NCBI GenBank assembly: GCA_001897425.1
Contig: MKSW01000002.1
Coordinates: forward strand, 62,001-126,000
Direction: 5' to 3'
Source: Actinobacteria bacterium 69-20
GTDB taxonomy: Bacteria; Actinomycetota; Actinomycetes; Mycobacteriales; Nakamurellaceae
Length of the DNA stretch: 64,000 nucleotides
The notes under the pieces are model-generated. The model was given only the letters and a program-made list of their open reading frames with translations, searched no databases and was not told the origin of the DNA. This document shows, in pieces, positions 2,467 to 6,650 of the stretch. The position numbers and the translations under genes are program-made. Position 1 is the first letter of the stretch, and every line of letters begins with the position of its first letter.

Positions 2467-5400
2467 GTGATCGCCGGGCGCCTCCTTCGCACGCGGACGC
2501 GCCGATGGGTCGCGCTCGTAGTCGCGGCGCTGGTGGTCGCCGCGGTCGTCGTGGCGGCCTGGCCACGGTCGGGGCCGGCGACGATCGCTGCCCAGGACGA
2601 GAAGATCGTCGTCCCGGCAGGAACTGGTCTAACGGGAACCGTCACCCTCGACGCGGGGCTCTACCTCCCGGCCACCACTCCCGCCCCCGCGGTGATCGTG
2701 GCGCACGGCTTCGGTGGGTCCCGGCTATCCGTCGACGCCGATGCCCAGCGCCTGGCCCGCGCCGGCTTCGTCGTCCTCACCTACTCCACGCGCGGCTTCG
2801 GCCGGTCCACCGGGCAGGTCGGCCTCGATTCGCTCGACTACGAGGTGCCCGACGCGCGCGCCCTGGTCGACTGGCTGGCGAAGCGGTCCGAGGTGACCCA
2901 GGACGGCCCGGGCGACCCGCGCGTCGGCGTCACCGGCGGCTCCTACGGCGGCGCGCTCGCCCTGATGCTCGCCGGAACCGATCCGCGCATCGACGCCGTC
3001 GCTGCCGTCGCCACCTGGAACAACCTCGAGCAGGCCCTGTTCCCCAACAACACGGCGGTCGTAAAGGTCGGTGGCAACCCGCCATCGCCGAGCGCGCCGG
3101 TCGGTACGGGCACCCCGGCGTTCATCCCGGGCGGGGCCGACGGCGTCTTCAAACAGGCGTGGGCGGCGGCACTCATCAGTTCGGTGCTCACCACCCCCGC
3201 GTCCGGCCCGTCGTCGGTCGGCAACAGCGGGTATGACGATGTTCCCGCCCCCACCAAGGACGGAACCGCCGGGCCTACCGCGGGGTCTACCTCGGGGGCG
3301 TCCGCCGGCTGCGGTCGGCTGATGGCCGACATCTGCGCGGCCTATACACAGGTCGCGGAGACCGGCCGGATCACCCCGACCATGGCCACGCTGCTGGCGA
3401 AATCCAGCCCGGACCAAGTGGTTTCGACAATCAAGGCTCCGACTCTGCTCGTCCAGGGCGAGCAGGACACCCTGTTCGGCCTGGACCAGGCCGACGCGAA
3501 CGCCCGCGCCATCGCCGCGAACGGCACCCCGGTCGCGGTGAGCTGGTATCCGGGCGGGCACAACGGCGGCGCCCCGGACACGACGACCGAGAACCGCATC
3601 ACCGACTGGTTGCACCACTACCTGTTCCGTACGGGTCCGGCGCCGTCGCAGACGTTCCGGTACTCGGTGGCCGGCCCGGTGTCGGATCGCGGACAACCGC
3701 GGCTACGCACGTTGCAAGTGCCCCAATACCCGGGCCTGGCGGGCATCGCGCACCCACCGCTCACGCCGGACGTCACCGTGCCGCTCGACGGCCGGCCGCA
3801 GGTGATCGCGAACCCGCCGGGTGGTGTCCCCGCGGCGCTCACCTCGCTGCCCGGGATCGGATCGCTCGCGTCGTCGCTGGCAGCTCTGTCGGTGGTTCCC
3901 GGGCAGACCGCGGAGTTCGTGTCGCAGCCGATGACAACGCCCCTGGTGGTCACCGGGTCGGCGACCGTGACGCTGCAGATCGAGCGGCTGCCGGCGGCGG
4001 GCTCCGGGTCTACTGACGCCACGAGCGGCCCATCGACCGGTGCGGCTGGCGGCGCGAACAAGCCCTCGTCCGTGCTGTACCTGTCGCTGGCGAGTGTTCC
4101 CGGCTCCGCCGGCACGGCATCGGGTACTGCGCCGGGCACGGCCGCATCGGCGAGCGCCGCGACCGGCACTACTTCCGGCTCGGTGAGCACTTTCGCGGCC
4201 GCCGCTCTCGGCGGTGCCCCGGCGGGCGGGGCGGTCGCGCCGATCCGCCTGGACGACCTGCCGGCCAACGGCACCCCCGCACTTGTCACGGTGGACCTGC
4301 CCGCGGTCGCATTCCAAGTGGTGTCCGGCAATCGGCTCATGCTCCGGGTCGCCACCACCGACCAGGGCTATTTCGGTCCGAAAACACCTGCCGCGTACCG
4401 GGTCTCGCTGGCCCCCGGCGGCAACCTCACCGTGCCGGAGGTGGGCGGCACACGCGTGCCAGGGGGCGACGACGCCGAACCGGTGGGGCTCGCGATCGGT
4501 CTGGCGGTGCTGGTGCTCGTGGGCACCGCCGGCCTGATCACGGTCGGGCGCATCAGGCCGCGCGGCCGCCGGACTGCCGCGCCGCCGGAAGCCCCCGACC
4601 CGTCAGAAACGCCCCGGCTTCCGGCGGTATCACCGCCTCCGGTCGTGTCGCAGCCGCCCGAGCGCGGCCCCGCCACGCAAATAAGCCCGAACGGGGCGCC
4701 GCTGGCGGCGAACGGCACCGGCGACGAAGGACCGATACCGCTCGTCATCAACGGCCTGGCGAAGCAGTACCCGGGTGGCGTCGCAGCGGTGCAGGACGTG
4801 AGCCTGCGCGTCGAACGCGGGCAGGTGCTGGGGCTGCTCGGCCCGAACGGCGCCGGCAAGACGACGACGCTGCGCATGGTGATGGGGCTGATCATGCCGT
4901 CGGCCGGGTCGATCAGCATCTTCGGCGAACCGGCCGGGCCGGGGGCGCCGATCCTGTCCCGCATCGGCAGCTTCGTGGAGGGGGCCGGGTTCCTGCCGCA
5001 TCTGCCGGGCATGGCGAACCTGGAGCTGTACTGGCGGGCGACCGGTCGACCCGCGGCCGATGCGCACCTCGCCGAGGCGCTGGAGATCGCGGATCTCGGC
5101 GCGGCCGTCCGGCGGAAGGTGAAGACGTATTCGCACGGCATGCGGCAGCGCCTGGCGATCGCGCAGGCGATGTTGGGGCTGCCGGACCTGTTGATCCTCG
5201 ACGAGCCGACCAATGGGCTGGACCCGCCGCAGATCCACGCGATGCGCGAGGTGCTACGCCGGTACGCGGCGAGCGGGCGGACGGTGCTCGTCTCCAGCCA
5301 CCTGCTCAGCGAGGTCGAGCAGACGTGCACGCATGTGGTGGTGATGAGCCGCGGTCGCACGATTGCCGCCGGCACGGTCGCGGAGATGGTGGCGGCGTCC

Positions 5401-5733: not shown

Positions 5734-6650
5734 GCCCGCTGTATCACGACCGATCGGCCGACGCCGCGATGATGGCGATGGACACCCTGCCGGCGTCCAC
5801 CACACCCCCGCGCGGCGCGGCGCCGGGATTCCGCCCGACCGCGACGCTACCGATCCGCGTGGAGCTCTCCCGGCAACTACGCCGGCGCCGGACGCAACTC
5901 ACCCTCGCCTTCATGGTGCTGCTTCCGGCGATCCTCGCGCTCGCGTTCCAGTTGGGCAGCAGCAGCGCCGGGCCGTCCACGTCGTCGTTCATCGATCTGG
6001 CACGGTCCTCGGCCGCGAACTTCGTCATGGTGACGATGTTCTTCTCGGCGAGTTTCCTGCTCATCGTGGTGATCTCGCTGTACTTCGGCGACACGATTGC
6101 GTCCGAGGCGTCCTGGTCGTCGCTGAAATACCTGCTGGCGATGCCGGTGCCGCGGATGCGGCTGCTGCGGCAGAAGCTCATCGTCGCGGCGATCCTGTCG
6201 GCGGTCTGCATCGTGGTACTCGCGGCCGTCGCGGCGGGCATCGGCCTGGTGCTGTACGGCGCGCACCCGCTCACCACGCCGACCGGCGAGACGTTCACCG
6301 GCAGCTCGGCGCTGTGGCGGATCCTGCTGGTGATCGGCTATATCGCGGTGCAGCTCGCCTGGGTGGCCGGCCTCGCGACGCTCATGACGGTCTCCACGGA
6401 CGTGCCGCTGGGCGCGGTGGGCACGGCGGTCCTGCTGTCGATCGTCTCGCAGATCCTCGACCAAATCACGGCGCTCGGCGGCTTCCGCGGCTTCCTGCCG
6501 ACGCACTACTCGTTCGCCTGGACCGGCGCCCTGGTGGAGCCGATCAACTGGGCGGACATGACGCGCGGCACCTTCTCGTCAGTCGCCTACGCTTTCGTGC
6601 TCACCGTCGCCGCGTTCCTGCTGTTCCGCCGCAAGGACGTCACCAGCTGA
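5730..6650 (+). CDS. ABC-2 type transporter permease
   Basis: A 306-residue membrane protein. After a hydrophilic N-terminus of about 45 residues it has six predicted hydrophobic helices, for example 'LAFMVLLPAILALAF' and 'LIVAAILSAVCIVVLAAVAAG', the layout of ABC-2 permeases. Its ATG sits inside the stop of the hydrolase-ATPase fusion (ATGA overlap at 5730-5733), so the two are translationally coupled. They are almost certainly one transporter, with the fusion providing the nucleotide-binding domain. Family members export drugs, lipids or peptides. Nothing in the sequence fixes the direction or the cargo. The presence of an external hydrolase on the partner suggests the cargo is processed on or after export. 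Confidence 0.88.
   Translation: MSPLYHDRSADAAMMAMDTLPASTTPPRGAAPGFRPTATLPIRVELSRQLRRRRTQLTLAFMVLLPAILALAFQLGSSSAGPSTSSFIDLARSSAANFVMVTMFFSASFLLIVVISLYFGDTIASEASWSSLKYLLAMPVPRMRLLRQKLIVAAILSAVCIVVLAAVAAGIGLVLYGAHPLTTPTGETFTGSSALWRILLVIGYIAVQLAWVAGLATLMTVSTDVPLGAVGTAVLLSIVSQILDQITALGGFRGFLPTHYSFAWTGALVEPINWADMTRGTFSSVAYAFVLTVAAFLLFRRKDVTS

Follow-up and report, generated by a model that had tools for sequence, protein, structure and literature searches.

A widespread actinobacterial fusion protein joins a putative extracytoplasmic S15-type hydrolase to an ABC ATPase encoded next to its permease

Results

The fusion is encoded by one open frame that overlaps the permease gene

The DNA stretch under study (hereafter the window; 64,000 nucleotides) carries at 2467-5733 of its forward strand a single open frame of 1088 codons with a GTG start and no internal stop, as judged from the ORF and its translation. 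The features of the encoded protein and of the permease encoded downstream are listed in Table 1. Upstream of 2467 the fusion frame remains open as far as a GTG at 2365. When the window was compared with a relative of 92% identity (L077), the differences by codon position were 5/3/3 before 2467 and 7/2/10 after it. Since an excess of third-position differences was absent before 2467 and present only after it, a start near 2467 is a reasonable assignment. The permease ORF (5730-6650) begins at the A of an ATGA junction, which confirms the 4-bp overlap with the fusion gene that had been described in an earlier, sequence-only reading of this DNA. An xTGA stop overlapping by 4 bp with an ATG or GTG was found at 78 of 81 junctions, the window included, and at the remaining three the stop and the following ATG overlap as TGATG. 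A scan for promoters and terminators gave no signal above chance.

Table 1. Positions of the fusion protein, its parts and the permease in the window.
Feature	Residues	Positions	Strand	Basis
Fusion protein: TM1, S15-type hydrolase, TM2, ABC ATPase	1088 aa	2467..5733	+	ORF/translation, Pfam, AlphaFold2 model
TM1, Arg-rich N-terminus before it	10-32	2494..2562	+	hydropathy, flanking charge, model
Alpha/beta-hydrolase core with S159, D334, H365 and C282/C290	41-387	2587..3627	+	PF02129, invariant residues, model, structural match
C-terminal jelly roll of the S15 fold	397-657	3655..4437	+	model strands; S15 structures align over 39-659
TM2, Arg-rich stretch after it	673-695	4483..4551	+	hydropathy, flanking charge, model
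Low-confidence linker	697-757	4555..4737	+	AlphaFold2 model
ABC ATPase	758-1053	4738..5625	+	PF00005; conserved motif residues (76 homologues)
ABC-2 type permease, six helices, NosY-like	306 aa	5730..6650	+	Pfam, model, structural match

The sequence-only reading had reckoned with a stop or frameshift at about 4,550-4,740 that would separate two genes. The frame is open in this region, and at 78 of the 80 homologous loci (some of them ended by a contig edge) a single ORF spans the two halves, which rules out a sequencing error or an artificial joining of two genes. A chance ORF in GC-rich DNA is ruled out by the domain matches and by conservation.

Both halves carry conserved catalytic residues

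The order membrane helix, hydrolase, membrane helix and ABC ATPase within one 1088-residue chain, as proposed earlier, was confirmed by Pfam and by an AlphaFold2 model of the fusion (built on a 50-row alignment; mean pLDDT 79), in which the ATPase occupies residues 758-1053. The hydrolase half matches Pfam Peptidase_S15 (PF02129) over residues 59-197 with an E-value of 5e-20 and 72.7 bits, against a gathering score of 23. Its proposed triad of S159, D334 and H365 is indeed intact, and is invariant in an alignment of all 76 homologous proteins. Of eight relatives, fused or stand-alone, seven gave an HMM match to the PepX_C model PF08530; the window protein itself has no Pfam match to PF08530, and its jelly roll was identified by model and structural alignment. 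The NCBIfam scores were below the curated cut-offs, by a modest distance for the CocE/NonD family hydrolase model (TIGR00976; 52 versus 66.3 bits) and by a large one for the Xaa-Pro dipeptidyl-peptidase model (31 versus 642 bits). Structural comparison of the hydrolase model placed it nearest to the lipase PaL (Z 32.0 and 3.0 A for 451 residues), presumably the enzyme so abbreviated from Pseudomonas alcaligenes. X-Pro peptidases came next (Z 26.7 and 26.0), with 25.4 for an alpha-amino acid ester hydrolase and 25.1 for CocE. The model predicts a complete S15 fold, with an alpha/beta hydrolase and a jelly roll. PaL is an esterase that acts on menthyl propionate (PMC9902596). With CocE, PepX, alpha-amino acid ester hydrolase and PaL the fusion hydrolase shares a common fold over residues 39-659 and the Ser-Asp-His triad, but the solved enzymes of this type are only 14-23% identical to the window protein, have no fused ABC ATPase and do not lie between two membrane helices. 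An ester may be the substrate of the fusion hydrolase, as a candidate reading; peptidases are also found among the S15 enzymes.

The ATPase half matches Pfam ABC_tran (PF00005) over residues 776-916 of the fusion (E 6e-27). It contains a Walker A motif (GPNGAGKT at 792), a signature motif (YSHGM at 888), a Walker B motif (LLILDEP) and an H-loop (H945), the core residues of which are invariant in the 76 homologues. Its nearest relatives are NosF, TM_1403, TM0544 and the lipid-moving ABCA proteins; it is also similar to DrrA and to Rv1218c, which belongs to a mycobacterial efflux pump, yet its score with the NCBIfam drrA model is below the cut-off (170 versus 312 bits).

The permease exceeded the cut-off for two ABC-2 Pfam models, PF12730 and PF12679 (E 4e-9), while a phmmer search against PDB sequences gave no match. 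Six helices make up its structural model (pLDDT 87), which lacks a large outer domain and most closely, though weakly, resembles NosY (Foldseek E about 1e-3), followed by the permeases of ABCG-type, PmtCD and TarGH transporters. The earlier proposal that a dedicated permease accompanies the ATPase is supported.

Charges, cysteines and the model place the two halves on opposite sides of the membrane

Both proposed membrane helices were seen by hydropathy (residues 14-32 and 673-691) and in the AlphaFold2 model (10-31 and 673-695), and they recur at equivalent positions in nearly all of the 76 proteins. Most of these proteins have a net positive charge before TM1 and after TM2. TM1 is accordingly predicted to start in the cytoplasm and exit to the outside, and TM2 to lead from the outside to the inside. 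C282 and C290 are the sole conserved cysteines in the hydrolase part of the 76 proteins; the pair also occurs in stand-alone relatives, and both cysteines are missing together in one relative (L112). This pattern fits a disulfide bond in an exported domain. On these several indirect lines, namely the positive-inside charges, the conserved cysteine pair and the model, the data support the earlier assignment of the hydrolase to the outside and the ATPase to the inside.

The mean column agreement was 0.73 for the hydrolase core and 0.82 for the ATPase core, as opposed to 0.39 for TM1, 0.49 for TM2 and 0.14 for the stretch that links TM2 to the ATPase. In view of these values, both enzymes are under selection, while the helices look like plain anchors. 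The stretches that join the hydrolase to TM1 and TM2 are 8 and 17 residues long in the window protein, and the stretch from TM2 to the ABC domain has 64 residues (family median 19, range 14 to 67). Since this last stretch is weakly conserved and no residue of TM1 or TM2 is invariant in the 76-protein alignment, the fusion may do no more than hold the parts together.

The fusion occurs widely among Actinomycetes

The same domain order was found in other genomes. One bacterial genome scan returned 173 relatives, and the 80 loci analysed among them come from Nakamurella, Pseudonocardia, Saccharopolyspora, Actinosynnema, Lentzea, Umezawaea, Haloechinothrix, Actinomycetospora, Geodermatophilaceae, Catellatospora and a Streptosporangiales MAG. 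The two exceptions to the single ORF are L085, which is in two frames, and L077, which stops within the hydrolase. The copy in L036, a record labelled 'UNVERIFIED_ORG: Bacillus sp. AZ43', groups inside Blastococcus and probably belongs to a mislabelled genome. Together with these loci, samples of 11, 41, 79 and 60 genomes were used to follow the distribution. The hydrolase half was present in every one of the 11 Nakamurella genomes. At E 1e-10 it was found in 34 of 41 genomes from the order, and at E 1e-30 in 17 of 79 from the class; outside the class, the phylum sample of 60 genomes gave three weak matches only. About 30 of the 34 matches in the order lay in open frames of approximately 850-1330 codons, in part of which the ATPase half was checked. 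In the class sample the fusion was confirmed in 13 genomes besides that of the window, with the permease wherever the downstream sequence sufficed. These 13 include four genomes of 8-10 Mb (L112-L115) and two of 1.34 Mb (L116, L117). To judge from these sequences, the fusion forms a conserved family that is widespread among Actinomycetes and not confined to the window genome. A literature search, which covered subscription journals thinly, returned no description of an S15-ABC fusion. This is a real and conserved combination of known parts that has apparently gone undescribed so far.

In one congener with a single-contig genome (G007; L091, 5467-8471) the halves lie in separate frames that share 37 bp. 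The hydrolase frame stops after TM2, and no start codon precedes the first strand in the ATPase frame. The gene has therefore more probably been broken by a frameshift, be it real or technical, close to where TM2 ends than been split naturally. Another genome (G063) has the fusion gene twice (L103 and L129), which indicates paralogs in some lineages. Stand-alone S15 hydrolases without an ABC half were found at L092, L119, L122 and L123. The paralog at L092 (4116-9172) is 29% identical, has the same cysteine pair and lies directly upstream of genes resembling those for the binding protein and the permease of a peptide-type ABC importer. These neighbours hint that the stand-alone branch may act on peptides.

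The gene pair resembles core genes in its surroundings and its phylogeny

The pair is flanked by terC and uvrB in the window and in several relatives, while at other loci the neighbours differ between families and repeat within a family. The tree, in which the proteins group largely by family and genus, was made by a quick method; the long branches of Catellatospora and the Streptosporangiales MAG meet in it, so that their placement is unsure. Given the terC/uvrB or family-recurrent neighbours and a tree that follows taxonomy, the pair behaves as core genes do. No conserved cargo or biosynthetic gene was found beside it in the loci compared. A condensation domain of non-ribosomal peptide synthetases (NRPS) was absent from the window genome and from eight of ten other genomes with the hydrolase family. 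In the terC/uvrB-type setting, and with no condensation domain in the genome, a secondary-metabolite gene cluster is unsupported.

A small FMN_red-family protein is encoded 18 bp past the permease stop (6669-7130, forward strand), and in the relatives compared the pair had no such neighbour. The sequence of the truncated gene at 1-1191 (reverse strand) resembles that of the beta-propeller part in S9 prolyl-oligopeptidase-type proteins; several Nakamurella have similar serine peptidase genes near the fusion gene. Further downstream, a PIN-domain protein (7492-7902, forward strand) is possibly the toxin of a toxin-antitoxin pair. The ORF at 11525-13465 (forward strand) holds a glutamine synthetase, the true start of which probably lies downstream, shortly before residue 188; opposite its upstream part, a small RDD-family membrane protein is encoded at 11506-11913 (reverse strand).

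Discussion

Several known systems share parts with the fusion and its permease. NosDFY, which serves nitrous oxide reductase maturation, provides the nearest solved permease (NosY) and one of the nearest ATPases (NosF), but NosFY lacks a hydrolase. Likewise, the efflux pumps DrrAB and Rv1217c-Rv1218c combine a similar, DrrA-type ATPase with an ABC-2 permease but have no extracytoplasmic hydrolase. The best precedent in mechanism is YbbAP-TesA of Escherichia coli, which also pairs an ABC unit with a dedicated extracytoplasmic esterase; there, the ABC unit is proposed to feed hydrophobic esters to the esterase, although the lipid-extraction step is unproven (PMC12646458). The YbbAP-TesA permease is of Type VII and has periplasmic domains, whereas the window permease matches ABC-2 models and has six helices without a large outer domain, and TesA is a separate protein and not S15-type, unlike the fused S15-type hydrolase of the window. 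The pair is therefore not a member of that group, but by analogy it may work in a similar manner.

We propose, with a probability of roughly 45%, that the fusion and the permease form an actinobacterial envelope machine in which a membrane step hands a hydrophobic ester or amide substrate to the tethered outer hydrolase. Two fusion chains and two permeases would assemble into one complex, with the hydrolase at the outer face, close to the membrane between TM1 and TM2, and the ATPase at the inner face. ATP would let the permease flip or lift a hydrophobic molecule bearing an ester or amide, such as a lipid or an acylated or peptidyl envelope compound, out of or across the membrane, and the hydrolase tethered above the permease would cleave it there, as proposed for YbbAP-TesA. 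Its role would then be housekeeping, envelope maintenance or detoxification, rather than the activation of one secondary metabolite. The single ORF, the 4-bp junctions, the invariant active sites, the class-wide spread and the terC/uvrB setting all speak for this proposal, as do the positive-inside charges at the two helices, the cysteine pair, the nearness of the hydrolase to PaL, of the ATPase to NosF and the ABCA proteins and of the permease to NosY, the taxonomic grouping of the tree and the YbbAP-TesA precedent. It is weakened by the poor conservation of the linker and of the helices, the weak structural match of the permease, the different permease type and hydrolase of YbbAP-TesA and the peptidases among the S15 enzymes. 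It is conceivable, though we consider it somewhat unlikely, that the S15 hydrolase receives a membrane lipid, or a compound linked to one, which a NosY-type ABC unit has extracted or flipped. The pair would then be an independent equivalent of YbbAP-TesA, built of unrelated components.

A serious rival, which sequence alone does not separate from membrane handover and which we regard as possible with a clear minority chance, is that a cargo made inside (a peptide, an acylated metabolite or a drug) is exported and then trimmed, activated or destroyed on site by the hydrolase. This corresponds to the coupling of transport to cargo processing that the sequence-only reading had put forward. ABC-2 permeases with ATPases of the DrrA/NatA type are typically exporters, and this would agree with the similarity of the ATPase to DrrA and Rv1218c and of the permease to ABCG-type and PmtCD exporters; the lack of an adjoining cargo or biosynthetic gene and the rarity of condensation domains argue against it. 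It is improbable that the ABC unit and permease carry no substrate and only switch the outer hydrolase on and off by ATP, in the manner of FtsEX-EnvC. A hydrolase pinned near the membrane by such short stretches would suit this mode of action, as would a nearest permease and ATPase from NosDFY, which acts with a periplasmic partner, but helices without invariant residues and a linker of such variable length (14 to 67 residues) would transmit force poorly. We consider it very improbable that the S15 hydrolase, as a secreted enzyme, and the ABC pump serve separate purposes and share a chain for co-expression only: the stand-alone S15 relatives and the separate frames in G007 would agree with this, but the order of hydrolase, ATPase and permease is kept class-wide with all catalytic residues of both halves, and the G007 gene looks frameshifted.

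The sequence-only reading had also drawn an analogy with the prodrug peptidases ZmaM and XcnG, while noting that their peptidase fold is different. The difference in fold was upheld, since the hydrolase is S15-type and the PF00144 beta-lactamase-type peptidase domain of the ZmaM type is absent from the Pfam matches; the analogy itself fits poorly. ZmaM does, as here, combine an extracytoplasmic serine hydrolase with ABC parts in a single chain of some 1,100 residues, but these parts are a whole half-transporter and not an ATPase alone, and XcnG has no ABC domain (PMC9889268). ZmaM-type proteins sit in NRPS gene clusters, whereas the window pair has a separately encoded permease, a core-gene setting between terC and uvrB and no condensation domain in its genome. 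As the fusion is also retained in the 1.34-Mb genomes, the activation of a secondary-metabolite prodrug in the ZmaM manner is barely plausible.

If the coupling of membrane handover to cleavage is real, one polypeptide would link an ATP-driven membrane step to extracytoplasmic hydrolysis, and the two steps would be separable by point mutations in one gene (S159A and K798A). The architecture is widespread in public genomes, but the family is easily overlooked: the ortholog on a Tsukamurella plasmid (WP_232066410.1), which is followed by an 'ABC transporter permease', is annotated 'alpha/beta fold hydrolase', a label that hides the transporter half. That the family is kept in genomes of 1.34 Mb and holds a steady position in the core genome suggests a basic, still unnamed function in the envelope.
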